From positions 62,001 through 126,000 of the forward strand of contig JAVUPY010000029.1 in NCBI GenBank assembly GCA_032252755.1: a stretch of 64,000 nucleotides of DNA, given 5' to 3'. A program made the position numbers and the translations under genes. A model generated the notes under the pieces. The model made no database searches. It saw only the letters and a program-made list of their open reading frames with translations, and was not told the origin of the DNA. This document shows, one piece after another, positions 540 through 57,200 of this stretch (positions are counted from its first letter, which is position 1; the number at the start of each line of letters is the position of its first letter). Origin of the DNA: Terriglobia bacterium (lineage in GTDB: Bacteria > Acidobacteriota > Terriglobia > Terriglobales > Acidobacteriaceae).

Positions 540-1301
540 ATGAGGCAACTGCGGAAAGCGCATTTCGACCTTTTCCGACTCCTGAACGAGCACTTTTTGT
601 TCTTAACTCGAAAGCAAGTCGCGCTGATTCTGACCCTATCCGCCAATCCCACCATCAAGTGGCTGCTGTGGCTCGTATCGGAGCACTACTTGGAGCGCCG
701 CTATCGGGCAAGTTCGTTCTCGGATTTCCAAACGCCGCTCTACTACCTGGGACCAAAGGCCTGGCGGATGCTGGGAAACCCGCCGGAGAGCTACAAGCCG
801 TACCGTGCGGGCATCGAGCAGTGGTCAGGTGTGCAGCTGGAACATCAGCTCGCGGTGTACGACGTCATCCTGAAATTCCTCCTCGAGGCAGGGGTGAGGC
901 GGATCGTCCAAAGCCAAGACAGGTTTTGGCACGAATCGCTTAGCTTCGAAGTGATCCCCGACGCGTGGATCGAGTACGCAGGCGGCCAAGCCTTCCTCGA
1001 AATCGACCGCGCTACCGAGAGCCGACAAGTGGTAATGCAGAAACTTGAGAAGTACATCAGGTTCAACGAATCGGGACTGCACAAGATCCTTCTCCCCGGC
1101 ACCACGTTCAGAGTCCTCTTCATTACGACAAGCGAGGAGTGGATCGAAGCTCTGGAGCAGCTGACGCGCTCGGACGACGTCTGGTTCGCAACAATGGAGG
1201 AATTCCTAAAGGAGCCGCTCGACCACCAACACTGGTTCGCCCTAAAGGGCTTCTATGCTCTACAGATTGCTCCAAAAGAAGAGGTGCAAGAGCTGCGGTA
1301 A
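540..1301 (+). CDS. Replication-relaxation (Replic_Relax) family protein
   Basis: A 253-aa protein resembling the Replic_Relax family found on plasmids and integrative elements. The N-terminal third looks like a winged helix (DLFRLLNEHFLFLTRKQ, then a YYLGPKAWRML strand-helix). The C-terminal half has the conserved acidic pattern VIPDAWIEY followed by AFLEIDRATES, also found in the second island member at 8772-9737 (VAPDAFF, then FFLEADRGTMT). In related proteins this D...E-x-D arrangement is restriction-nuclease-like; catalysis here is inference. The next gene overlaps its end by 47 bp, so the two are probably cotranscribed. It probably acts in element replication or transfer. Confidence 0.75.
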   Translation: MRQLRKAHFDLFRLLNEHFLFLTRKQVALILTLSANPTIKWLLWLVSEHYLERRYRASSFSDFQTPLYYLGPKAWRMLGNPPESYKPYRAGIEQWSGVQLEHQLAVYDVILKFLLEAGVRRIVQSQDRFWHESLSFEVIPDAWIEYAGGQAFLEIDRATESRQVVMQKLEKYIRFNESGLHKILLPGTTFRVLFITTSEEWIEALEQLTRSDDVWFATMEEFLKEPLDHQHWFALKGFYALQIAPKEEVQELR

Positions 1302-1609: not shown

Positions 1610-2533
1610 ATGCACTTCTGCATGAACACGAATCAATGTCCGAAAATAAGCGAAGTGTTGGTCGGGTTTACCGAATACATGTCCGCTGAAAGGCGGTTCT
1701 CACCCCGTACAGTAAAGAACTATGGGGAGGCATGTCGATACTTTGCGAAAGAACTGGGAGATCTGGGAGTCTCGGAAATTGAACTCCGCCACTTCATCTC
1801 GCTCAAGGCCCGAATGGAGGTACGCGGAACTGGTGCCTCGCGCGTTGCCAGCATCATCGTTGGAATGAAGTGTTTGCTCCAGTATGTCCGCGACGTCTTA
1901 GGCGTTGCGGTGATGGATCTCACTGGCATCAGAACCCCGAAAGCACCAAGTCGGGAGGTGACGTACCTGACCCATGACGAACTGGGGATATTTTTCGCAG
2001 CCATTCGGTTGCAGACATGGACAGGGGAGCCACGGTATTCGGGATATTGCTTTAGGGCGCTCGCCGAGACGCTGCTTGCGACCGGAATGAGAATCTCAGA
2101 GGCGCTCGCCCTGGACCGAAATTCTATCGATCTCGTTGCGAAAGAGGCCGTCATAGTGGGCAAGGGAAATAAGCAGCGTACAGTGTTCTTTACCGATCGG
2201 GCCCTCGAATGGCTCCAGAAGTATTTGGCACTCCGCAGAGATTCGAATCCGGCCTTGTTCCTGTCATCACGTTCGAGACGGCTGACTATTGATGCTGTCG
2301 GACGAACATTTTGTCGCGTACGCACATGGGCTGGGTTGGAAAAACACGTGACGCCCCATACGTTGCGGCACACGACGGCTACGAACCTGCTCGCGAATGG
2401 ATGCCCCATCGGATTCATCCGTGAAGTTCTGGGTCATCAACGGCTGGAGACGACGTGCAGGTACTACCTCGGAATTCTCAATAGAGCCGACACCAAAAAA
2501 GCCCACGAAAAGTACTCATGTCTAGCTGCGTAG
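1610..2533 (+). CDS. Tyrosine recombinase/phage integrase family, copy 1
   Basis: A 307-aa tyrosine recombinase of XerC/XerD size. An N-terminal SAM-like core-binding domain (FTEYMSAERRFSPRTVKNYG, about residues 19-38) precedes the catalytic domain. Catalytic residues are visible: Arg in ATGMRISEAL, Lys in VGKGNKQRTV, the HxxR box in HTLRHTTAT, a His in LGHQRLETT, and the nucleophile Tyr in TCRYYLG. ATGs at 1610, 1622 and 1634 compete as start, and none has a strong Shine-Dalgarno. It is followed by a 410-bp gap with iterons and then by a paralogue with the same motifs. Such pairs move or resolve elements in known systems; the target here is unknown. Confidence 0.92.
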   Translation: MHFCMNTNQCPKISEVLVGFTEYMSAERRFSPRTVKNYGEACRYFAKELGDLGVSEIELRHFISLKARMEVRGTGASRVASIIVGMKCLLQYVRDVLGVAVMDLTGIRTPKAPSREVTYLTHDELGIFFAAIRLQTWTGEPRYSGYCFRALAETLLATGMRISEALALDRNSIDLVAKEAVIVGKGNKQRTVFFTDRALEWLQKYLALRRDSNPALFLSSRSRRLTIDAVGRTFCRVRTWAGLEKHVTPHTLRHTTATNLLANGCPIGFIREVLGHQRLETTCRYYLGILNRADTKKAHEKYSCLAA

Positions 2534-2943: not shown

Positions 2944-3879
2944 ATGAATAGTGCGGAGAATACATCTTCTCGGGGAGATGCGGAATACGCCGAGGCTACG
3001 ATCCGCGATCTTCTGCCGTTGTTTCTCGCCTATGCGGAATACGAGTGGAATCTTTCACCGCGGACGATTCGAAATTACCGAGAAGCACTTCTGCGTCTTC
3101 TCCAAGCAGTCGGTGATATCAAGCCCGTCGACTTCGACGTCAAGACGGTCCTGAAACTCAAGACCGATCTCGCTACGTCTCATGTTGGAGTGTGCTGGAC
3201 TCGTGCCATCGTGAACGCACTGCGAAGTTTTCTGCGCTTCTGCAAACTCGTCCTCAACTTTGACGTTTTGGACCCCAAAGCCATTCGTTTGCCCGCGATT
3301 CCGCGTCGAGAGGTGGTATTTCTCACGCCAGGAGAGATCGAGGTTTTTCTGAATGCGATTCCGGTACGCAAGCAGGACCACCGCTTCAATGTCAGATGGC
3401 TGTGTTTTCGCGCTCTGGTCGAAGTGCTCTTGAGCACGGGAATGCGTATCTCGGAAGCGCTTTCGCTAGATCGAAGTTCCGTAATCTACGACACGGGCGA
3501 AGCGAGAGTAATCGGAAAGGGGCGAAAGGAACGCACGGTGTTTTTTACTCCGCGGGCTATTGGATGGATCAAGGAATATCTCAGTCGCCGATCAGATTCT
3601 TCGAATCGGCTCTTCGCATTACCAAACGGAGAGCCCCTTGAGTACGACACCGTCCGTGTCTGGTTCAATCGAATTCGACGGAAGACGGGAATAAAGAAAC
3701 CGCTCACCGCCCACATCATGCGTCACACCTGCGCGACGCTTCTGCTCTTCAACGGGTGTTCGATAGCGCATATCAAAGAAATCTTGGGTCATGATCGGCT
3801 GGAGACAACATGCCGATACTACCTGGGAGTCGATAAGGCTGCGTCTAAAGAGGCGCACCGTCATTACCTAAACTTTTAG
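2944..3879 (+). CDS. Tyrosine recombinase/phage integrase family, copy 2
   Basis: A 311-aa paralogue of the 1610-2533 recombinase with the same layout: core-binding motif NLSPRTIRNYREALLRL, Arg in STGMRISEALSL, Lys in IGKGRKERTV, HIMRHTCAT, LGHDRLETT and the terminal TCRYYLGV tyrosine. The frame is open from 2752, but the ATG at 2944 (MNSAENTS) aligns with the N-terminus of copy 1 and has a purine-rich GAAGG upstream, so it was chosen; ATG 2884 is an alternative. The pair recalls two- and three-recombinase transposons such as Tn554 or RIT elements, but no third adjacent copy is seen. Directly after the stop is a 26-bp palindrome. Confidence 0.92.
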   Translation: MNSAENTSSRGDAEYAEATIRDLLPLFLAYAEYEWNLSPRTIRNYREALLRLLQAVGDIKPVDFDVKTVLKLKTDLATSHVGVCWTRAIVNALRSFLRFCKLVLNFDVLDPKAIRLPAIPRREVVFLTPGEIEVFLNAIPVRKQDHRFNVRWLCFRALVEVLLSTGMRISEALSLDRSSVIYDTGEARVIGKGRKERTVFFTPRAIGWIKEYLSRRSDSSNRLFALPNGEPLEYDTVRVWFNRIRRKTGIKKPLTAHIMRHTCATLLLFNGCSIAHIKEILGHDRLETTCRYYLGVDKAASKEAHRHYLNF

Positions 3880-3905
3880 AGGCAAGCAAAATCGTTTGCT
3901 TGCCT
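3880..3905. repeat. 26-bp perfect palindrome (11-4-11) after recombinase 2
   Basis: Arms AGGCAAGCAAA (3880-3890) and TTTGCTTGCCT (3895-3905) are perfect inverted repeats around ATCG. No U-tract follows on either strand, so it is a poor intrinsic terminator. The size resembles a tyrosine-recombinase core site (two roughly 11-bp arms around a short spacer), but it may simply be a transcript-end hairpin. Confidence 0.6.
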
Positions 3906-3911
3906 CCATAC

Positions 3912-4838
3912 GTCAGAGATCGGGGCAGGGCGTCGGGAGGTTCCCTACGACATGGAGCAGGCGAGCCCGAGAGTGCGAGCGAGTTCTCCCCGAGAGCTCG
4001 CTCATGCAAGGATCTCGCATCGTGCCGAGGCTCGGTCTCGGGCTGCCCAGACGGCATACAAATACCCCTACATATCAAGGTATGTAGGGGTGCCATTTCG
4101 CAGGAACAAACAGAAGTTGTTCCTGCAATGGCAGTTATGCCATCGGACTGCACGCTCCATGTCGGTCGGTACCCTCCCGACTTCGACCTTCTTTCGGCCT
4201 CTCCCCCTAACGTTTGCCCTCTCCACTACTGTTGCTGCTGTCTTGGTCACTGCTGTACATGTTGTGCTAATGGAATGGTGCGCTTGGCGCGTTCCTTTGT
4301 GCTGTATTAGTTCGTCGTGAGATTGGTTTCGCATGCAAGTTTGTGGAGTGCTCGTGGCGAGCAAACGTCAGGTTCCGCGGTCGTGGCCGACTTCATCCGG
4401 AATTCTGGGTGAATTCCGGATTCGGGTTCATCCCTCTTCCAACTCGATACAGTTGTATCGGGATTCACCAAGAAGGTCGAAGTCGGGAGGGGCTCGATTT
4501 TCTTGCTGCGCGCCACAGAACATTTCGCAGCGTCGCAAGCTTCGTGGTGTTCAGAGAAAGTACTGAGCGTGCGCTCGTGATTTGAAACTGATCGGCGCGC
4601 AGAGAAAATCGGCTCCCGACGCCCTGCCCCGAAATCTTGCTTGAAACGGAATTTGTTTGGGAGCAAAATAGTGGTGCAGTGTAGTTTGGCTCGCTCATAA
4701 GAAGGCGGCCACTCTAACAGTTGAGAAAGGCGGAAACGCCAGGAAGACGAAAGTCTTCCTTCTTGGTTCCCGACCTTTCTCAGAGCGTGAGCTCTCGGAA
4801 CTCTTCGCTTCCGACTGTTACAGTGGCCGCCTTTTTTT
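3912..4838 (+). ncRNA. Giant structured non-coding RNA (about 900 nt), unknown class
   Basis: This gene-free stretch is built from nested inverted repeats. A 20-bp perfect stem joins 3920-3939 to 4613-4632. A 22-bp perfect stem joins 4172-4193 to 4470-4491 inside it. Others: 3964-3972/4036-4044 enclosing 3977-3983/3997-4003; a three-way junction closed by 4053-4058/4136-4141 with hairpins 4064-4074/4081-4091 and 4092-4109/4117-4132 (one 2-nt bulge); 4395-4405/4411-4421; and 4506-4514/4594-4602. The 3' domain (4702-4833) is a branched structure with two GAAA and one GTGA tetraloops, closed by a 20-bp helix with one mismatch and followed by seven Ts. The GNRA loops and T-tract fix the + strand. 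Size and phage/island context recall GOLLD, ROOL or OLE RNAs, but no similarity to them was established. Confidence 0.75.
4702..4838 (+). terminator. Branched 3' domain and intrinsic terminator of the giant RNA
   Basis: Helix 4702-4721/4814-4833 (20 bp, one C-C mismatch) is followed directly by a T-run at 4832-4838. Inside lie helix 4722-4730/4774-4782, hairpins 4729-4740 (GAAA loop), 4741-4760 (8 bp, GAAA loop) and 4783-4794 (GTGA loop), and 4796-4800/4809-4813. The T-run after a GC-rich stem supports termination on the + strand. Confidence 0.8.
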
Positions 4839-4860
4839 GTTTGCGGCCATTCGGCCAATG

Positions 4861-5152
4861 GTCGACGGCGGAAACGCCGACGTGATCTTTGCACAAGGCG
4901 AAAGCCAAGTGGGAATGGGAGCAACGCCCGGAGGTCGTTGCCGCGCGATGGCGCACCCAAACTCCGAATAGCGAACCCGCCAGAAGACGGCGGGGCACAC
5001 GTCCTGATGATTCTTGAGTCAGTCGGGGTATACCCGACACGGCGCACAGGCGCGGACAGGACGCGAACGGCAGCTGCGTGACTGCAGCCGCCTAGACCCC
5101 GCCGGGATACACGGCACAGGCGCACACGTCGCGCGCTGAAGCGCGATGCGAC
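4861..5152 (+). promoter_or_regulatory. Second structured block, possible leader RNA of the 5233 gene
   Basis: Between the terminator and the start of the secreted-protein gene lie further hairpins: 4866-4879 (5 bp, GAAA loop), 4897-4906 (3 bp, GAAA loop), 4921-4926/4936-4941, 4976-4981/4989-4994, 5022-5027/5033-5038 and a GC-rich hairpin at 5128-5152. GNRA loops again favour the + strand. It may be a 5' leader controlling the transfer-like operon, or a separate small RNA. No known riboswitch pattern is recognised. Confidence 0.5.
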
Positions 5153-5232
5153 CTGAACCAATCAAACGCACCACCCGAACGCTCAAACCAGGGCGTTCTG
5201 ATGGCCAACCAACTCCAACCAGAGGAGGTCGC

Positions 5233-6303: not shown

Positions 6304-7096
6304 ACCGAGACGACGAGCTCTGACGTTTCTCGATAAGTACGAGAAAGAAGGCAGGCGAACACAGCATAAACGCGTGAGTTCACCTAAACTCCCCGAGCCG
6401 GAGATTATTCCGCCTCCTGCACATGGTGCGCTCATTCGTTCCGCGTTGGACGCTTTGAGCGTTGACGCAATGGATACATCTGAACTCGATCGAACGCTCA
6501 CTGCGGCGAAACTTCCAATCGCCTTGCAGAAGGGCGGATTTTTCGATCCCGATCCACTCGCTGAGAAAATTGACGAATTGAGACGCCTCGACGAGTACAA
6601 GGTCGCGCTGATCCGACAAGTCACCGTGATGCGCCACGCGATGGAGGAAGTCAGTGCACTAAAGCGGGCTCAACGCCAACAGTACATGGACATCTTGGCG
6701 TTCAAACAGGAAGTGCTCGAAGTTAAGGCACACCTGAAGTACGCAGATGTTGCCGCAGCCCGCCGCGACGAGGTGGCGGAAGCAGAGGCCCGCGCTACGA
6801 TCGCACGGCTCGATGGCGAAGCTGAGAAAGCACGCCGTCCGGTAGTACCAGCTCCGCCTGCGTCAACCGCGGCCGCCGTTACACCTCCGAACGATCCGCG
6901 TGCGCAGAACAAAGCGCGGATCATGGCTGAGATCGAGCGCCTCGAGATCGACGAAGGCAACGAAATTCGCAGGTTGACCAAACTGCGGCCGGAAACCGAA
7001 TGGTCACCAGACTTGAAGGACGAAGTAGTCCGGATTCAGAACATGTACGACGACGCCCGCGAAGAACTCCGGAAACAGTTGGGGAGGTACCTATGA
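6296..7096 (+). CDS. Coiled-coil hypothetical protein in transfer-like operon
   Basis: A 266-aa soluble, highly charged protein. Residues from about 75 to 175 and 205 to 260 are rich in Glu/Lys/Arg/Ala with heptad-like spacing, typical of coiled coil. Between them is an Ala/Pro linker (RRPVVPAPPASTAAA). It starts inside the upstream gene (8-bp overlap) and its TGA overlaps the ATG of the ATPase gene by 4 bp, so translation is probably coupled. No family is recognised. Position suggests a partner of the ATPase or a cytoplasmic part of the same complex; this rests on context only. Confidence 0.75.
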   Translation: MPKPRRRALTFLDKYEKEGRRTQHKRVSSPKLPEPEIIPPPAHGALIRSALDALSVDAMDTSELDRTLTAAKLPIALQKGGFFDPDPLAEKIDELRRLDEYKVALIRQVTVMRHAMEEVSALKRAQRQQYMDILAFKQEVLEVKAHLKYADVAAARRDEVAEAEARATIARLDGEAEKARRPVVPAPPASTAAAVTPPNDPRAQNKARIMAEIERLEIDEGNEIRRLTKLRPETEWSPDLKDEVVRIQNMYDDAREELRKQLGRYL

Positions 7097-8775
7097 AACC
7101 GCTGTTCTTCGGATTTGACGTGAAGGGGGAGAAGATTTTGCTTTCTCCAGAAGAGCGATGTGCCCATATGCACGTCATCGGCTCTTCCGGATCGGGCAAG
7201 TCAAAGTTTCTCGAATGGCTCATGAGGCAGGACTTGGACAAACGCCAGGGCTTCTGCCTCATCGACCCTCACGGGGATCTCTATGAAGAGGTTCTCCACT
7301 ACGCCGCACACAAGGTGCTCCGCCGCGACACTATCCTCCTCAATCTCTCGAACGCCAGTTCCATCATCGGATTCAATCCGTTCGAGCGCACGTTGGGTGT
7401 GGAGATCTCAGCGCAGGTGGACCGCCGGATCGCGGCGACGCTCCGGGCGTGGAATGTGAAGACGACCGACGAGACGCCGACACTCGAGCGGACGCTGCGC
7501 CTCGTCTACACCATCATGATCGAGCAGAATCTCGGGTTGCGAGAGGTGAACCACCTTATTACCTACCAGGCGCGCGAAGTCCGGGCTCAATTGATCGAGC
7601 GGCTGCAAAGCCCCTTGATTCAGACGGAGTGGGAGGAACTCCAGAAGCTCAGCCGCCGCGACTGGCAGGAGGAAGTCCTCTCCGCGAAGAATCGGCTCTT
7701 TCGATTGCTCACGTCGGGCACGCTGTCGCGTTTCCTGGGAATGCCCGGGCAGTCGATCGACCTCGGCGACATCATCGAGAACGACAAGGTTCTCTTGGTG
7801 AATCTCGCCGCCAGCGACTCACTGTCGAGCGAAAACGCGCGCGTGTTTGGGGCGCTGCTCGTCAACGAGTTCTTTGAGGCCGCTAAGCGCCGGAAGAAGG
7901 ATTCGCTCGGGCGCGACCCCAAGCCCTACTACCTCTATATCGACGAATTCCAAAACTTCGTCACACTGGATGTCGGCGACATGCTCGACCAAGTGCGGAA
8001 ACGCGGCCTCTTCGTCATCCTCGCGCACCAACGGTTCGGGCAGCTCGATGAAAACGTCACCGACGCCGCACTCGCCAACTGCCACATTAAAGCCGTCTTC
8101 GGCGGTCTGCCGGTCGCAAGCGCGCGCCGTATGGCCGAAGAGCTCTTCATCGGAAAGCTCGATCCGAAGCGCGTGAAGGCTGCGATTTACCAGACGAAGT
8201 TCTGGCCACAGTACGGTCGTGACACCGTCTACGGCAGCGGCTCGAGTCGCGCGGCCTCGCACGGCTCCGGATGCCACTCGGCATCGGGCTCGTCCTCGAG
8301 CTTCGGGTCGGGCGAGTTTTTCGGGCCGGAGGACTGGTTCGGAGGTTCGAGCACCTCGTCACAATCGGGCGAGTCCTGGATGACGGGTTCGATCGACATG
8401 GAGACGGACTCGTCCTCCGAATCCGAGTCGACCGCCGACATCCCGGTCTTCACGCCCGTCCCTTTTGAGGAGCTCTCCAGCATCCAGTATTACACGCCCG
8501 AGGAACAGCTGCTCGAATTCACTGCGGCGCTCAAGCAGCAGTTCCCCAGGCACTGCTTCATCAAAGTCCACCAGCGCGATACCCAGCCGATGCTCGTCCC
8601 GAAGGTTACGCGATTTTACACGCGGGCGCGGAACCGCTCGTGGTACGTGGAGAAGCTCTTTCGCACGCAGCACGCGCTTCCGGCCGCGGAGGTCGACCGC
8701 CTGATTGAGGAACGGGAGCGGAAGTTGCTCGCGGGACTAAAGAGGGACGACCTCCCTGAGGACTTCCGCGAATGA
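7093..8775 (+). CDS. VirD4/TraD-like conjugative coupling ATPase (HerA/FtsK superfamily)
   Basis: A 560-aa ATPase. Walker A is GSSGSGKS at residues 30-37 and Walker B is YYLYIDEFQN near residues 280-289. Typical coupling-protein blocks are present: FCLIDPHGDLYEEV, VLLVNLAASD and RKRGLFVILAHQRF. There is no N-terminal membrane domain, unlike classical VirD4, so it belongs with soluble TraG/TraD-like ATPases of integrative elements or needs a membrane partner. A Ser/Gly-rich insert (about residues 378-445) separates the ATPase core from a C-terminal domain. The start at 7093 was chosen over an upstream in-frame ATG (7000) because it gives the usual 4-bp overlap and has GGGGAGG upstream. Confidence 0.88.
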   Translation: MKPLFFGFDVKGEKILLSPEERCAHMHVIGSSGSGKSKFLEWLMRQDLDKRQGFCLIDPHGDLYEEVLHYAAHKVLRRDTILLNLSNASSIIGFNPFERTLGVEISAQVDRRIAATLRAWNVKTTDETPTLERTLRLVYTIMIEQNLGLREVNHLITYQAREVRAQLIERLQSPLIQTEWEELQKLSRRDWQEEVLSAKNRLFRLLTSGTLSRFLGMPGQSIDLGDIIENDKVLLVNLAASDSLSSENARVFGALLVNEFFEAAKRRKKDSLGRDPKPYYLYIDEFQNFVTLDVGDMLDQVRKRGLFVILAHQRFGQLDENVTDAALANCHIKAVFGGLPVASARRMAEELFIGKLDPKRVKAAIYQTKFWPQYGRDTVYGSGSSRAASHGSGCHSASGSSSSFGSGEFFGPEDWFGGSSTSSQSGESWMTGSIDMETDSSSESESTADIPVFTPVPFEELSSIQYYTPEEQLLEFTAALKQQFPRHCFIKVHQRDTQPMLVPKVTRFYTRARNRSWYVEKLFRTQHALPAAEVDRLIEERERKLLAGLKRDDLPEDFRE

Positions 8776-9737
8776 CCGCGCCAGCGTCAAAGCGACTCCC
8801 GCGCTACCGCCGCGCTCCGGAGGATCTCTCGTGTTCCCTCACGCTGCGCGACCTTGAGATCCTCGGCGTGACGGAGTCATTCCGGCTCGTCACCTCAGAG
8901 CACATTCAAGCCCTGACCGCCGGTAGCGGCCAGGGCGTGCTGCGACGACTGCAGAAGCTCTTCCATGCCGGTTACCTCGACCGGCTGCAACCGAGAGCCC
9001 CGTATGGCAGCGGCAGCGCGAAGATGGTTTACGCCATAACCAACAAAGGCATTCGGACACTTGAGGAAAGTGGGGAGTTGAAACGCCGTTCAAGCACCGA
9101 CTGGAACGCGCAAAACCGCACTCTCCACGACTTCTCCATTCGGCACACGCTGCTCGTGAGCGAAATTCGCGCTGCGGTCACGGCGGCAAGCCGCCACAAT
9201 CCGGGCCTTAAGCTCCTCTACTGGAAAGAGGGGCGGCAACTCTACGACTCGGTCGAAGTTGCGCTCCCTGATGGCTACGCACACATACCGGTCGCGCCGG
9301 ACGCGTTCTTTGGCCTCCAGGATGCGCAAGGGAAGATGCACTTCTTCCTGGAGGCTGATCGCGGCACGATGACGCTGAAGCGCTTCGTGCGCAAACTCAA
9401 GGCGTACGCCGCGTATCACCGGCAGAAGAGACAGCAGGACAAGTTTGGCATCCGATACTTCCGGGTGCTAACAGTGACGTCGAGCGTCGAGCGCGCCGGG
9501 AACTTGGCCAAAGCAGCCAAGGCCGAAGACGACATTCGTCAGCTCGGTCGGATGTTTTTGTTCACGTCCGACGACGGTCTCTCACTCAGTGATCCCGAAA
9601 GCATTTCCAAAAAGATCTGGAGCTCACTCGAATCTCCAGATCGGTGCTCGATCCTGGGCGAAACGGAGACTATTCCCGCAAAGGAGGGGAAACCATATGA
9701 GCTTCGAAATAATCCTTACCATCGAGGAATTCAGTGA
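8772..9737 (+). CDS. Replication-relaxation (Replic_Relax) family protein, second copy
   Basis: A 321-aa protein whose ATG overlaps the ATPase stop by 4 bp. The N-terminal winged helix is clear (LTLRDLEILGVTESFRLVTS, then VLRRLQKLFHAGYLDRL and a Gly-rich wing). The C-terminal domain carries VAPDAFFGL, FFLEADRGTMT and KLKAYAAY, a nuclease-like D...E-x-D pattern also seen in the 540-1301 protein. The family is found on plasmids and integrative elements, often beside coupling ATPases. It may act as DNA-processing or replication factor for the island. The two island members are diverged, so they are not a recent duplication. Confidence 0.8.
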   Translation: MTAPASKRLPRYRRAPEDLSCSLTLRDLEILGVTESFRLVTSEHIQALTAGSGQGVLRRLQKLFHAGYLDRLQPRAPYGSGSAKMVYAITNKGIRTLEESGELKRRSSTDWNAQNRTLHDFSIRHTLLVSEIRAAVTAASRHNPGLKLLYWKEGRQLYDSVEVALPDGYAHIPVAPDAFFGLQDAQGKMHFFLEADRGTMTLKRFVRKLKAYAAYHRQKRQQDKFGIRYFRVLTVTSSVERAGNLAKAAKAEDDIRQLGRMFLFTSDDGLSLSDPESISKKIWSSLESPDRCSILGETETIPAKEGKPYELRNNPYHRGIQ

Positions 9738-9982
9738 GTCGCAGCAGTGACTCGGTTTCAACTGCGGAGAACTCGGGCCTCATGCCAGAGTTGCTCACCG
9801 CAAAAGAGCTCGAGGCGCTCTTGAAGATTGATGTGAAGACGATCTACTCCTACGTGCAGCGCGGACTCATCCCGTACGTGCGTATCCAGTCGAACGTGCG
9901 CTTCGTGAAGCATCAGATCTTCGATTGGATTGAAGAACGGAATTACCGCCCGCGTCCTCTGAACGGCCGCAAGGCGAACTGA
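9734..9982 (+). CDS. Excisionase/MerR-like helix-turn-helix protein
   Basis: An 82-aa protein with a GTG start overlapping the previous stop by 4 bp. Residues about 18-72 form the HTH_17/excisionase type winged helix: LLTAKELEALLKIDVKTIYS, YVQRGLIPYVR, VRFVKHQIFDWIEE. Proteins of this kind act as excisionases (Xis) or small regulators. As last gene of the operon and the only such protein here, it is the best candidate for directing the integrase at 20076. A strong terminator follows. Confidence 0.8.
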   Translation: MSRSSDSVSTAENSGLMPELLTAKELEALLKIDVKTIYSYVQRGLIPYVRIQSNVRFVKHQIFDWIEERNYRPRPLNGRKAN

Positions 9983-10666: not shown

Positions 10667-10734
10667 AGTACTTATCTCTCATTTTGCAACGCGAGCCATT
10701 CCTGTCAAGGAATTCGCGAAAAGAGGAACAGAGT

Positions 10735-13700
10735 ATGCGACATATAGCGACGCTAATTTGCTTGGTAGCCCTTTGCTTTCTAGCCCTACTCCCAGTTGCA
10801 GTGGCCCAGAATGCGGCAACATGGAGTCCTTCCCAGATTTCTGCGACTGTTCCTTCGGGCACGGTGCAGGTCACGGAGGCAACACTTAGTGTAAGCAGTG
10901 CGGTTACGAATGTGCACATAAGCGTCGTCCCTGAACTCGCCCCCTTTGTGACCGTTTCCCCAAGTTCCTTTTCTGGAATAGGCGCGGGAGAATCACGGAC
11001 TATTGCCGTTTTCATCGCGATTCCAAAAGTAACAAAGGCAAATCCAAAAGGAACAATTCATCTCTCGGCTCGTGATCGCACCGGCAGGACTTTCGGCCGC
11101 CCGTTGCCGGTCTCCATTCGCGTTACGCAGCCGTCACTGTGGACGATTCCCGATGTCCTAACCGTACCAAGCCCCGATCGAGTGGTCACGGAGCCCGACC
11201 TAAGAGGTATTCAATTCGTCAGCGATGAAGTCAATATCTATTTCAAAGAGGGTACGACAAAAGACATTGTGACCGGAGTTGTAGCGTCAATTGGGGGCGT
11301 GTTTCTCGGGGGCATCCCGGAGTTAGGGATGTATCAAGTGCGAGTGCAGACGAATTCGTTCGACGGGATCTCAAGTCTCATAGGCCTACTGCAGTTGCAA
11401 TCGTCCGTTGATTTTGGCACCCATACTGTTCTCTCAGATTCTTTCGTCATTCCGAATGATCCGGGGACTTCGATGTCCTATGTGCCTGGAATGCTCAATC
11501 TGCAGAAGGCTTGGGACATCGTCTCAAATGCTCGGGACGAGGTCGGTAGCACCGAGTTCGATGTTGCCGTTGTAGACTCGGTTTTCGATAAAGATAACCC
11601 CGATCTTCAGCCGAACATCGCCAATCTGGTCAGAAATCTTGGCCCATTGACCGTCAATCACGGAACTCGTGTCGCAAGTATCATTGGTGCGGCAGGCAAT
11701 AATGGACTTGGCATAGCAGGCGTAATGTGGAAAGGGCGTTTACGCCTGTTCAGCGCTGCGGACCCGTTCAACCCGCTAAAATGGTCTTCGTTCAACAAAG
11801 CGATTACAGATGCTGTAACGCTTCGGCCTCGAATCCTAAATTTCAGCGGCGGTTTGGAGTGCAAGGAAGAGCCGTGTACGTCGAAGGAAGAAAGCGCTCT
11901 AAAGGACATGGATTTGCAATTTGCAAGACTCATTGGTTCGGCCCACAAGTTGAGCCCGCCAGCTGATATTCTCTGGGTAATTTCTGCTGGAAACGCTGGA
12001 ATTCACGTTTCCAATTCCTCTCCGGCCCGCCTCTCTGGCCTTTTGCCAAATGTAATGAGTGTCTCCGCCGTGGATTCCAACGGCCATTTAGCAATTCCCT
12101 TCACATGCAATGGGCATCAGCAAGGGGGCTCGGATTATGGTCCCGAGGTAAGCGTTGCAGCCCCGGGCGTGAACGTGACCAGCGACGTGATCGGCGACGG
12201 CGCAAACGATGGCACTACTAATAACGGATGCGACGCAACTGGAACCTCCTTCGCCGCTCCACACGTAACCGGGGTTGCGGGCCTCCTCATGTCGCTAAAG
12301 CCAGACCTTACGGCTGACGATCTGAAAAGGATCATAGAACGCAGCGCAAACCAGACTGGCGAGGATCCTGATAGCAACAAGGTTAAATTGCTTGACGCGT
12401 GCCGCGCAGTTAAATCAGCAGCAATTGTCGATGATCCTCCTGCACCTCAGCTTCTCGCTCCTCTCAACTTGACTGCAATTGCTCCAAAAAATGGGGTCAT
12501 ACCATGCCAGGGCCTAGGGTACGACGTCGAGTTCAGTTGGTCTGATGTATCTGCAGATTCGTGCAATTCCATCGACCATTATGAATTTCGCCTCTACCCG
12601 CCGACTACAGACACTCAGTCGATCGATACGAACGTGAATGATACGACTTTCTCTTACCGTATTTGTGCCCCCGCCCCGACCGGGCAATGGACATGGAGTG
12701 TTACGGCCAGAGACAAGTACGATAACCGAAGTGACGATGTTGTTCGAATCTTCAGCTTCGAACCCACTGTTATTATCCCGCCTCCTGATGTTTCGATCAC
12801 CAAGACAGCAAGTCCGAATCCACTGGCGAGTGGCGGGATTATCACCTACACGATCACGGTGCAGAACGCGGCAGGCACGACGGATGCGCAGAACGTGACG
12901 GTAACCGATCCTCTCGACAGTCGCCTCACCTATCAATCGTGCTCGACCTCAACCGGCGGAGCCTGTTCGCCAAAAGACGGGGTTCCCACTGCGTTATTCC
13001 CAATCCTAGTGGGCGGGATACCTGCAACGTTCACGATTGCAGCTACCGCACCGACCGTAACAACATCAACGCAAATTTCCAACACGGCAACCGCAACTGC
13101 GGACAATGAGCCCAGCGGAAATACCGCCAACAATCAGGCTTCCTCGATCGTTACAATCAATACATCCTCTGCACTGCCCATTGGGGGGCCGTTTGCGGGG
13201 CACGTCACCGCGCTCGAAAGTGATCCAAGCAATCCGGCAACATTGTACGCATTCGATGGTGCCGAGAATACCAATGCGGCGAGTACGCTATTCAAGAGCA
13301 CTGACGGAGGGCAGAGTTGGAAACAGCTTTTGAATTTTGGTAAAGACAACACCTGGCCATTCAGGTTCCCTGGCGGTCTGAAACTAGATCCGAAAAACCC
13401 AGGGACAGTTTACGCAGGGTACCAGAAGAGCATTGATGCCGGTCTGACCTGGACCGACAACAAATGCGTAATACTCGGAATTGATCCTGTTAACACTGCG
13501 ACGATCTACGGAACAGCTTGCGGACCATATCGGTGGCAAAACGATAGCGCAAATCATCTGTTCAAGAGCACCGACGGCGGCCAAAACTGGAACCTGATCT
13601 ACTCTTCTCCTGCAGCAGTTATGATATTCGTTGTAGTGGATCCAATGGATCCGAGCACCATCTATGCTCTCCCATGGACAGCGAGTGTTCTGAAAAGCAC

Positions 13701-15036
13701 TGATGCTGGACAGACTTGGGTGACACTGAGTCTGCCGACGTACGTGCCCACCTCACTCGCAATTGATCCAAAGACCCCTTCCACGTTGTATGCGGGACAC
13801 CTTAAGAGCGCCGATGGAGGTCAGACTTGGACTACCTTGTCCTGCTATTTGTTGGGGATGGTAATTGATCCCGTTAACACATCCACACTCTACGGAGCTG
13901 GATACGGCGGCGTCTGGAAGAGTACGGACGGCGGCCAAAGCTGCGCGTTGGCAGTTTCTGGACTGACTAGCACGTATGTTACAGCTCTTACCATTGATTC
14001 AGTTAATCCGAACACACTTTATGCAGGAACGAATGGAAGCGGAATATTCAAGACTGCGGATGGTGGCCAACACTGGAATACGAGCAGTTCGGGATTCACT
14101 AATACGAACGTCTTTTCCTTAGCGATAAACCCTGTGAACCCCAGCATACTTTATGCGGGTCTTTCACATGGAGCTATGTTTAGAACAGCCGATGGGGGGC
14201 AATCCTGGGGTGCGCTTGACTATTTCCCATGGTCCGCGGACGCGCCGTTGTCCTTTGTGGTCATCGATCCTGTGACTCCCACCACCCTATATTCCAAATT
14301 CGCAGAGCCTACCGCAAGCACAGATAGTGGACGTACTTGGCAGTCTCTGCCGTTAAATGTCGGAGGCAACGATCTCATTGGCTTTAGTATTGATCCAAGT
14401 AATCACTCGACGTTATATGCTGCTGTGCTTGACACTCATACTTTCCATCTCCTAGACATTTTTAAGAGCACCGACGCGGGATTCCACTGGACGTCAACGA
14501 ATGCTTCGGTCCTCAAATCCTCGACGACGTTCAGGACAAAGATCTTTATCGATCCGAAGAACTCTTTAAACATGTATGCACTGCTAGATTCTGGTTTATT
14601 TAAAACGGCGGATGGGGGGCAGAACTGGATACCAACAAACAACGGAATGAGCGGCATAATGTGGAGTTTTGCGATCGATCCGCTCGATTCTGCAACGCTC
14701 TACGGTGGAAACGATAGCTCCGGTTTCTTCAAGAGCACTGATACAGGGAGCAATTGGGTTGCAATTGGCCACTTACCCAATGACATCAGGCAGTTGGTCG
14801 TGGACCCGATGCAAACATCAGTAATCTACGGCGTCGGGAGTAGCGTGATAACAAAGACCACCGATGGTGGCCAAACCTGGAATGACTTGACAGGGGGGCT
14901 TCGCGACTTTGGGGGCATCACCGCGTTTGTGTTGGACCCAATTAACTCTTCTACGCTTTATACCGCGACGATCTACGGCGGAGTTTTCAAGAGCACCGAC
15001 GGTGGCCAGACATGGCAACCCACCGGAGCCAATTAA
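10735..15036 (+). CDS. Secreted subtilisin-like serine protease with DUF11 and Asp-box repeats
   Basis: A 1433-aa secreted protein. It starts at the ATG after AAGAGGA, with signal peptide MRHIATLICLVALCFLALLP. The S8 catalytic triad is complete: Asp in VAVVDSVFD (about 281), His in VNHGTRVASI (about 309), Ser in GTSFAAPHVTGVAGLLMS (about 505). A fibronectin-like segment and one DUF11-type domain (VSITKTASPNPLASGG) follow. From about residue 815 to the end there are roughly 14 Asp-box (BNR) motifs of the form S/T-x-D-G-G-Q-x-W, alternating with IDP-x-NP-x-x-LYAG strands, indicating one or two beta-propellers of the sortilin/sialidase-like kind. It lies inside the mobile island as apparent cargo; the substrate is unknown. 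Confidence 0.9.
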   Translation: MRHIATLICLVALCFLALLPVAVAQNAATWSPSQISATVPSGTVQVTEATLSVSSAVTNVHISVVPELAPFVTVSPSSFSGIGAGESRTIAVFIAIPKVTKANPKGTIHLSARDRTGRTFGRPLPVSIRVTQPSLWTIPDVLTVPSPDRVVTEPDLRGIQFVSDEVNIYFKEGTTKDIVTGVVASIGGVFLGGIPELGMYQVRVQTNSFDGISSLIGLLQLQSSVDFGTHTVLSDSFVIPNDPGTSMSYVPGMLNLQKAWDIVSNARDEVGSTEFDVAVVDSVFDKDNPDLQPNIANLVRNLGPLTVNHGTRVASIIGAAGNNGLGIAGVMWKGRLRLFSAADPFNPLKWSSFNKAITDAVTLRPRILNFSGGLECKEEPCTSKEESALKDMDLQFARLIGSAHKLSPPADILWVISAGNAGIHVSNSSPARLSGLLPNVMSVSAVDSNGHLAIPFTCNGHQQGGSDYGPEVSVAAPGVNVTSDVIGDGANDGTTNNGCDATGTSFAAPHVTGVAGLLMSLKPDLTADDLKRIIERSANQTGEDPDSNKVKLLDACRAVKSAAIVDDPPAPQLLAPLNLTAIAPKNGVIPCQGLGYDVEFSWSDVSADSCNSIDHYEFRLYPPTTDTQSIDTNVNDTTFSYRICAPAPTGQWTWSVTARDKYDNRSDDVVRIFSFEPTVIIPPPDVSITKTASPNPLASGGIITYTITVQNAAGTTDAQNVTVTDPLDSRLTYQSCSTSTGGACSPKDGVPTALFPILVGGIPATFTIAATAPTVTTSTQISNTATATADNEPSGNTANNQASSIVTINTSSALPIGGPFAGHVTALESDPSNPATLYAFDGAENTNAASTLFKSTDGGQSWKQLLNFGKDNTWPFRFPGGLKLDPKNPGTVYAGYQKSIDAGLTWTDNKCVILGIDPVNTATIYGTACGPYRWQNDSANHLFKSTDGGQNWNLIYSSPAAVMIFVVVDPMDPSTIYALPWTASVLKSTDAGQTWVTLSLPTYVPTSLAIDPKTPSTLYAGHLKSADGGQTWTTLSCYLLGMVIDPVNTSTLYGAGYGGVWKSTDGGQSCALAVSGLTSTYVTALTIDSVNPNTLYAGTNGSGIFKTADGGQHWNTSSSGFTNTNVFSLAINPVNPSILYAGLSHGAMFRTADGGQSWGALDYFPWSADAPLSFVVIDPVTPTTLYSKFAEPTASTDSGRTWQSLPLNVGGNDLIGFSIDPSNHSTLYAAVLDTHTFHLLDIFKSTDAGFHWTSTNASVLKSSTTFRTKIFIDPKNSLNMYALLDSGLFKTADGGQNWIPTNNGMSGIMWSFAIDPLDSATLYGGNDSSGFFKSTDTGSNWVAIGHLPNDIRQLVVDPMQTSVIYGVGSSVITKTTDGGQTWNDLTGGLRDFGGITAFVLDPINSSTLYTATIYGGVFKSTDGGQTWQPTGAN

Positions 15037-21354: not shown

Positions 21355-21441
21355 TGGTGCCGAAGAAGGGACTCGAACCCCCACACCCTTGCGGGTACAT
21401 GGACCTGAACCATGCGCGTCTGCCAATTCCGCCACTTCGGC
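21355..21441 (-). tRNA. tRNA-Leu (anticodon CAG)
   Basis: An 87-nt gene with acceptor stem GCCGAAG/CTTCGGC and encoded CCA. The anticodon loop TTCAGGT gives CAG, the long variable arm is typical of class II tRNA-Leu, and the T-loop region GGTTCGAGTCC is canonical. The 3' end points to the integrase, marking it as the insertion site of the island. Confidence 0.96.
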
Positions 21442-55894: not shown

Positions 55895-56060
55895 GTTCTA
55901 CGGAATCGGATTGTTTTGCGGGGCTTAGTGTCCGCGTTGCTGCAGGGGGGAAGCCCTGCTGTAGCCGGTTTCGCGACAATTCTATTGGCTTCGACTTTCT
56001 TATGCGAGTGAATTTGTGCGCACCGCGGTTATCAGGTGAATCCAGCCCAGGGAGTGTGCC

Positions 56061-56238
56061 GTCGCGCGTTCGCGCGACTCGGAATTTGGATTGCATGCTT
56101 CCCCGCACTTACGTGCGGGGCTACGTTCTTGAAGCAAATGCGGAGAGATCCGCACGTTCACGAAATGGAATCTGCCGTCGCGCTTCGCGCGACTCGAGAG
56201 GGTGATTGCCGTTGCTTTCCCCGCACTTACGTGCGGGG
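56061..56238. repeat. REP-like palindromes, left group (two composite units)
   Basis: Type A palindrome GTCGCGC...GCGCGAC at 56061-56078 and 56177-56193; type B palindrome CCCCGCAC-TTAC-GTGCGGGG at 56101-56120 and 56219-56238, each followed by CTACGTTC. A and B alternate about 23-25 bp apart, giving composite units of roughly 60 bp. They lie left of the IS200-like transposase gene, as in REP/RAYT systems. Confidence 0.8.
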
Positions 56239-56262
56239 CTACGTTCCGGGAGCATTTTTGCT

Positions 56263-56392
56263 CACATTCTCAAAGCAGCTTCCTCGGTCACATTTTCAAA
56301 GCAGCTTCCTCGGTCACATTCTCAAAGCAGCTTCCTCGGTCACATTGTCAAAGCAGCTTCCCCGGTCAAATTTTCGAAGCAGCTTTCTGTTC
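56263..56392. repeat. 26-bp tandem repeat, five copies
   Basis: Unit CACATTCTCAAAGCAGCTTC plus CTCGGT, starting at 56263, 56289, 56315, 56341 and (degenerate) 56367. Copies differ at one or two positions. It sits within the palindrome field next to the transposase gene. All three frames are open for part of it, but no protein is likely. Confidence 0.8.
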
Positions 56393-56415
56393 ACAGCTGT
56401 GCTCCGAGAAAGTAG

Positions 56416-56478
56416 CCCCGCACGTGAGTGCGGGGTCAACGGCCCGTTTTCAAATTCCGAGTCGCGCAGATGCGCGAC
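56416..56478. repeat. REP-like palindromes in inverted orientation
   Basis: Type B at 56416-56435 (preceded by GTAG, so reversed) and type A at 56461-56478 (preceded by CCGA, also reversed), just before the transposase stop. This composite unit is inverted relative to the left and right groups. Confidence 0.8.
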
Positions 56479-56494
56479 GTAAGAATTCCAGTTT

Positions 56495-56944
56495 TCACTC
56501 CTGATAGGGCGGTGCCAGGACGCGATCGACTCCGTGCTGCGTCAGGATTCGCTGCCATTCTTCAAGGAAATTCGCGCGGCGATGATGGTCGCGCTGCCCC
56601 AGAATGTAATCGATCGTGGGTTTCATCGCTGTGGCTCCGACGCTGAACGCGCCGTAACCCTTCTGCCAAGAAAACAAAGGGATCTTCCCTTCTTCTGAGA
56701 TCCATCGTGAGGAGTTCGCTTTGATTTTCTGGACCAGTTCGGAAAGAGATTTGTTACCGGGCAGCGCGAGAAGTATGTGAACGTGATCCGCGGTACCGCC
56801 AACCGCCATCGCAACAGCGTCGAGGTTTCTCGCCACTCCGCCGATGTATGCCCACAAGCGCTCTTGAAGGTTGTCTGGGATGAGGGCGCGACGTTCGGCG
56901 GTTCCGAAGACGATGTGGACGCGATTGCAGATGATGGAGTGCAT
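56495..56944 (-). CDS. IS200-like REP-associated tyrosine transposase (RAYT)
   Basis: A 149-aa Y1 transposase from ATG 56944 (the frame is open to 56974). HUH-type motif VGGTADHVHILLALPGNKSL with HVH, catalytic tyrosine in MKPTIDYILGQRDHHRR, and the preceding ERLWAYIGGVARNLDAVAMA and FSWQKGYGAFSVGATA blocks are family signatures. Such proteins nick single-stranded DNA at palindromes. REP-like palindromes flank the gene on both sides, in both orientations, as in domesticated RAYT/REP pairs. There is no second (TnpB) gene. Confidence 0.92.
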   Translation of the reverse strand: MHSIICNRVHIVFGTAERRALIPDNLQERLWAYIGGVARNLDAVAMAVGGTADHVHILLALPGNKSLSELVQKIKANSSRWISEEGKIPLFSWQKGYGAFSVGATAMKPTIDYILGQRDHHRRANFLEEWQRILTQHGVDRVLAPPYQE

Positions 56945-57017
56945 GGATCGAGAGTAGGCGCAGGTCGTAACCAAGAGTTAGCGTTTTCACACACACATTC
57001 CCGAAATGGGATCTGGC

Positions 57018-57141
57018 GTCGCGCATTCGCGCGACTTGGGAAACTGAAGAGATCGGGTTCCCCACACTTACGTGCGGGGCTACTTTCTCACAGACGACGC
57101 GGGGGTGGCCAGCATCGGGTTCCCCGCACTTACGTGCGGGG
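57018..57141. repeat. REP-like palindromes, right group
   Basis: Type A at 57018-57035, a slightly degenerate type B at 57060-57079 and a perfect type B at 57122-57141. Orientation is the same as the left group. These lie between the transposase start and the nrdJ terminator. Confidence 0.8.
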
Positions 57142-57200
57142 CTACTTTCTTGGAGCCACGTTCTTCATAGATCGAGGCGTTCGACAAAACCGGGACAAAG

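Follow-up and report, generated by a model that had tools for sequence, protein, structure and literature searches.

A stretch of about 490 nucleotides (~4676-5160) in the genome of a soil-dwelling Terriglobia bacterium is, with moderate probability, a structured non-coding RNA of an undescribed family that probably acts in trans for the transfer or replication of the element carrying it. The DNA analyzed, here called the window, comprises 64,000 nt (assembly GCA_032252755.1, contig JAVUPY010000029.1, 62,001-126,000, forward strand), and positions are given in window coordinates. The RNA would consist of a tightly conserved core at its 3' end (4838-5160), preceded on the 5' side by a helical domain of which the closing helix is kept while the interior is free to vary. 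It would head a module of four genes encoding P5, P6, a VirD4-like ATPase and a nicking-type Replic_Relax protein, within an integrative element that has a tandem pair of tyrosine recombinases (Table 1). Most likely it would be transcribed from the + strand jointly with this module, form a stable folded particle, by itself or together with protein, and act in trans in the transfer or replication of the element, in a way conceivable for a GOLLD- or OLE-like RNA. Large structured bacterial RNAs of unknown role are few (GOLLD, ROOL, OLE and some others), and each of them is hard to assign. The RNA described here offers a concrete starting point, with a clear core, a fixed neighbourhood of transfer and replication genes, and a core that changes more slowly than the adjoining proteins.

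The core was recognized by comparison with a second genome (G234), a Terriglobia MAG from another family of the same class. Its 5112-base contig JAIQGB010000326.1, here L024, came to light when 399 genomes of the class were searched for the VirD4-like ATPase. The sequence upstream of P5 on this contig aligns with window positions 4824-5160 (main block 84 %, blastn E 1e-70), and core identity is 83-84 % over 322 aligned bases. Directly downstream of the core, the genes for P5, P6, the ATPase and Replic_Relax 2 have homologues in L024, arranged as in the window. The core evolves much more slowly than the adjoining genes, since P5, the ATPase and Replic_Relax 2 share 31-60 % identity with their L024 homologues at the protein level, 48-59 % at the nucleotide level and 33-42 % at third codon positions, which are near saturation between the two genomes. 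Having changed far less than its neighbours, the core therefore probably serves some important role. A shared protein is ruled out because the homologues differ by indels of 1, 2 and ~50 bases and the L024 core has stops in six out of six frames; the conserved coding that the earlier note had set against an RNA is absent from the core homologue.

The consensus fold of the two cores contains 95 pairs, nine of them with compensatory changes and none broken. Its energy is -130 kcal/mol, against -83 ± 6 kcal/mol when the same number of substitutions was randomly placed on the window sequence. In these controls 2.5 compensatory pairs were found on average, and none of the 200 replicates reached the observed values. 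Folds predicted from the window sequence or from L024 singly show six compensatory changes each, with 8 and 11 broken pairs. Covariation is limited in that two sequences only are compared and most pairs are invariant.

Table 1 Features of the locus in window coordinates (a dot marks features to which no strand is assigned)
Feature	Position	Strand	Details
Xre-type regulator and RuvC-like protein	-799..-7 (L027:7202-7994)		RuvC-like: weak Pfam match; precede first Replic_Relax gene
Replic_Relax protein 1, nicking-type replication initiator family	540..1301	+	PF13814 E 6e-18; phrog_9381 'replication initiation by nicking'
Tyrosine recombinase 1 of tandem pair	1610..2533	+	PF00589 E 2e-34
Tyrosine recombinase 2	2944..3879	+	PF00589; 42 % identical to recombinase 1
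19-nt inverted repeat at recombinase 2 stop codon	3872..3913	.	hairpin without T-run
Outer palindromic region	3915..4637	.	25-nt arms 3915-3939/4613-4637 around nested repeats; candidate RNA part only
Perfect 20-bp inverted repeat	3920-3939/4613-4632		
Inner stem	3939..4173	.	arms 3939-3958/4154-4173, 20 nt, 80 %; encloses three-way junction
Perfect 22-bp inverted repeat	4172..4491	.	arms 4172-4193/4470-4491
Promoter-like TTGAAA-17-CAAAAT	4641..4669	+	weak consensus match; transcript would start near 4676
Putative variable RNA domain	4696..4839	+	23-pair closing helix, A-run/T-run at foot; GAAA, GAAA, GTGA loops
Putative conserved RNA core	4838..5160	+	84 % identical to L024:305-690
P5	5233..6303	+	signal peptide, LptE/PelC/CsgG-like periplasmic domain, one membrane helix; L024 42 % aa
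P6	6296..7096	+	no known family; L024 homologue 29 %
VirD4/TraG/HerA-like ATPase, coupling-protein type	7093..8775	+	PF10412, PF12696; L024 31 % aa
Replic_Relax protein 2	8772..9737	+	PF13814 E 3e-31; phrog_9381 E 1e-22; L024 60 % aa
HTH_17/excisionase-like protein	9734..9982	+	PF12728; phrog_66

The branched domain with GAAA, GAAA and GTGA loops and a T-run, which the earlier note had proposed as the 3' part of an RNA, is indeed present at 4696-4839. Its closing helix is homologous in L024 (23 pairs, five compensatory changes, against 0-1 in slid controls), where the arms measure 26 nt. The interior is hardly alignable (~206 bases in L024 versus 92 in the window), so that 4696-4839 reads as a conserved helix carrying a variable domain. 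The flank 4630-4696 is weakly similar in L024, with 14 out of 500 shuffles equally good. Judged by its sequence, 4676-5160 would together form a new structured RNA, and the covariation among homologues that had been proposed as a check is found in the core as well as in the closing helix. The earlier note had the RNA end at 4838, with the T-run directly after the closing helix. The T-run is there; the RNA does not simply end at it, as the conserved core begins immediately 3' of the T-run and the conserved structured part runs to ~5160. The sequence from 4838 to the P5 start codon (5233) is structured as well. At the foot of the helix, the T-run (4830 in the window) is base-paired to an A-rich run in both genomes. 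Because of this pairing, and with the core starting right behind, it is not a proven terminator and looks like the foot of a helix.

The position of the RNA ahead of P5 brings in a different role, that of a cis-acting leader. The P5-P6-ATPase-Replic_Relax operon would then begin with the RNA as its long 5' untranslated region, through which its transcription or translation would be controlled, with the helix and T-run at 4696-4836 as attenuator. Such a leader would explain that the distance from the core end to the P5 start codon is ~70 bases in either genome, that the window has an AGGAGG ribosome-binding site ahead of P5 and no detected promoter-like or terminator-like site between core and P5, and that helix and T-run are retained in both genomes. 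By its place immediately ahead of P5, with no evident terminator in between, the RNA would suit a leader no less than a molecule acting in trans. However, the conserved core sits 3' of the T-run, and the pairing with the A-run accounts for the T-run as helix. A conserved stretch of ~320 bases at 84 % identity also exceeds by far what leaders usually show. A leader function is regarded as rather unlikely.

The RNA strand is likely to be the + strand. GNRA loops of the window's RNA occur on + only and are, within 3912-4838, confined to the 4696-4839 domain. The core shows nine compensatory pairs on + versus four on -, and the downstream operon lies on +, co-oriented with the RNA. The fold energy of the core is slightly better on - (-134.9 vs -130.1). 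Equally good folding of both core strands is compatible with a structure in single-stranded DNA (oriT, or an origin of the double-strand or single-strand type) on which the Replic_Relax proteins and the coupling-type ATPase would act. Two Replic_Relax genes (phrog_9381) and the VirD4-like ATPase are present in the same island, and compensatory changes are expected from a folded DNA strand too. Nevertheless, this explanation is considered quite improbable: typical origins are smaller than the 320-base structure with its 95 conserved pairs, and both the one-sided GNRA loops and the excess of compensatory changes on + argue against it.

The inverted repeats and hairpins of 3912-4838 are real and far beyond chance. 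The long stems closing 3920-4632 (20 bp) and 4172-4491 (22 bp) and, in the predicted fold, the three-way junction at about 4053-4141, all described in the earlier note, are present. When the 64 kb was shuffled locally 20 times, perfect inverted repeats with arms within 1200 bases did not exceed 15 bp. The fold of 3912-4838 is 13 SD lower than that of shuffled sequences on + and 17 SD lower on -. These two perfect repeats of the gene-free region are the longest in the window, with another 20-bp pair in a repeat cluster at 56-57 kb. This cluster (56060-57156) consists of REP-like CCCCGCACTTACGTGCGGGGCTAC in four copies plus one inverted, and harbours tandem 26-base repeats at 56251-56388.

The earlier note had interpreted this whole stretch as one RNA of ~925 bases, based on GNRA loops and a T-run on the + strand. 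That argument stands for the last ~130 bases, and the helix closing 4696-4839 carries compensatory changes. It fails for 3912-4640, which is devoid of GNRA tetraloops on + and -, and folds equally stably on both strands (-364 and -362 kcal/mol); G.T versus A.C appositions (3 vs 2) favour neither strand. Membership of 3920-4632 in the RNA was likewise not borne out by a homologue. DNA homologues of 3880-4860 were not detected in 200 relatives, plasmids, phages and six genomes with related islands, and the palindromic region is single-copy in its own genome. The L024 contig reaches only ~50 bases beyond the 4696 helix on its upstream side and so stops short of any such region.

The palindromic region contains the motif GTCGGGAGG four times in alternating orientation, at 3932 (+), 4173 (-), 4482 (+) and 4612 (-, one mismatch). 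It was considered that two unrelated neighbours adjoin here, namely the RNA at 4676-5160 and a separate palindromic DNA at 3915-4637 that either is used by the tandem recombinases, for instance as the site of attachment or resolution, or is left over as a single-copy remnant. This proposal concerns the extent of the RNA, is compatible with the preferred explanation for 4676-5160, and is given a slightly less than even chance. It agrees with the alternating motifs, with the location directly 3' of recombinase 2, with 3912-4640 lacking a detected homologue, GNRA loops and strand preference, and with the promoter-like site that falls between the palindromic region and the conserved RNA. On the other hand, the promoter match is weak, long near-perfect helices also mark the conserved domain (23 pairs; 26-nt arms in L024), and the L024 contig stops before the palindromic region. 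Chances are about even that 3915-4637 adds another variable domain to the 5' side of the RNA at 4676-5160; one ~1.25-kb RNA with such a domain and an independent DNA structure beside the recombinases are rated about equal. A giant RNA class of ~1.25 kb (3912-5160), with a slow 3' core and large variable 5' domains, as a working part of a conjugation/replication module is itself unlikely. If true, the association of this large, ornate RNA would be with DNA transfer, not with phages. As the locus shows, the hairpins that stand out most in a large structured RNA need not be the part that is most useful.

Its genes suggest that the locus is an integrative element equipped for transfer or replication, and the mobile-island habitat proposed in the earlier note fits the recombinase and Replic_Relax genes alongside. 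A gene for a zinc-ribbon-like protein lies between Replic_Relax 1 and the tandem recombinases. P5 is with modest confidence predicted to be a membrane protein with an LptE/PelC/CsgG-like domain. Just past the module a 1450-aa ORF (10684-15036) combines subtilase, DUF11 and Sortilin/BNR-type repeat domains. The tandem recombinase pair also occurs in another genome (G023, locus L013); the RNA was not found 3' of that pair. An Xre-like ORF lies near the tandem recombinases of G023 too. A recombinase piece 56 % identical to recombinase 2 is located at a contig end in G234 (C199:19371-19664, L014), its homology being lost just before the region holding the catalytic tyrosine. Upstream of a related ATPase module in G134 there is a perfect 34-bp inverted repeat with arms 192 bases apart (L023:10177-10436), unrelated in sequence to the repeats studied here.

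In the collections searched the core is known in two genomes only, those of the window and G234. Further core homologues were not detected in 396 genomes of the phylum, 399 of the class, 85 of the family and 39-40 of the order/family, nor in plasmids and phages. A search for an exact 18-base core motif in 84,980 species genomes yielded nothing beyond G234 but chance matches, and three motif scans of IMG/VR gave chance matches only. Across genomes, plasmids, phages and IMG/VR the RNA is rare. Weak DNA matches in G765, G546, G569, G594 and G045, those in G045 and G569 falling inside genes, and an R1 model match in G446 were all judged to be chance, none having further core features. TraG relatives are present in G470, G134, G325 and G220, in which the RNA was not found. 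Pattern scans of genomes and viral contigs revealed no relatives of recombinase 2, viral contigs gave no P5 or Replic_Relax alignments, and plasmids no P5 relatives. The part of the literature covered by our search contains no description of this RNA.

A cmscan with all 4227 Rfam families found nothing in the window at gathering score except a tRNA elsewhere. Under relaxed settings (E up to 5-10) the region gave chance matches to other families only and L024 none. The RNA thus appears to have no credible Rfam match and to represent an undescribed family. A 23S rRNA-derived fragment, suggested by AAACTCCGAATA, was rejected; the 23S rRNA of the own genome reached a best local E of ~0.03-1, with two shared motifs in the wrong order. 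Single-strand origins and oriT regions (rolling-circle, conjugative) resemble the locus in that folded sequence adjoins nicking-type replication proteins and a coupling-type ATPase, but the window structure is much longer, has GNRA loops on one strand, and no nick site was identified in it. OLE is mainly found in Gram-positive extremophiles, whereas the window RNA belongs to a mobile element in Acidobacteriota and gives no OLE model match. OLE is a structured RNA of ~600 nt with stretches of highly conserved nucleotides (PMC9723947), and the window RNA is similar in size class and conserved stretches. ROOL and the window RNA are both large structured RNAs of unknown role on mobile DNA, but the latter does not match the ROOL covariance model. 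The habitat of GOLLD is phage or prophage, often near tRNA islands. In contrast, no phage structural genes were recognized beside the window RNA, its neighbours being recombinases, Replic_Relax and the VirD4-like ATPase; there is no tRNA cluster near it (a single tRNA, 21355-21441, lies 16 kb off); and no matches were found in phage records or IMG/VR. Neither does it match the GOLLD Rfam model at relaxed thresholds. On these model comparisons, which agree with the earlier note in tying the RNA to none of the three, the names GOLLD, ROOL and OLE should not be applied to it. GOLLD has a conserved 3' region and a less conserved 5' region and occurs on mobile DNA (PMC12286853). With its likewise conserved 3' core (84 %) and variable 5' helix interior, the window RNA would be nearest to GOLLD in anatomy among the RNAs compared.
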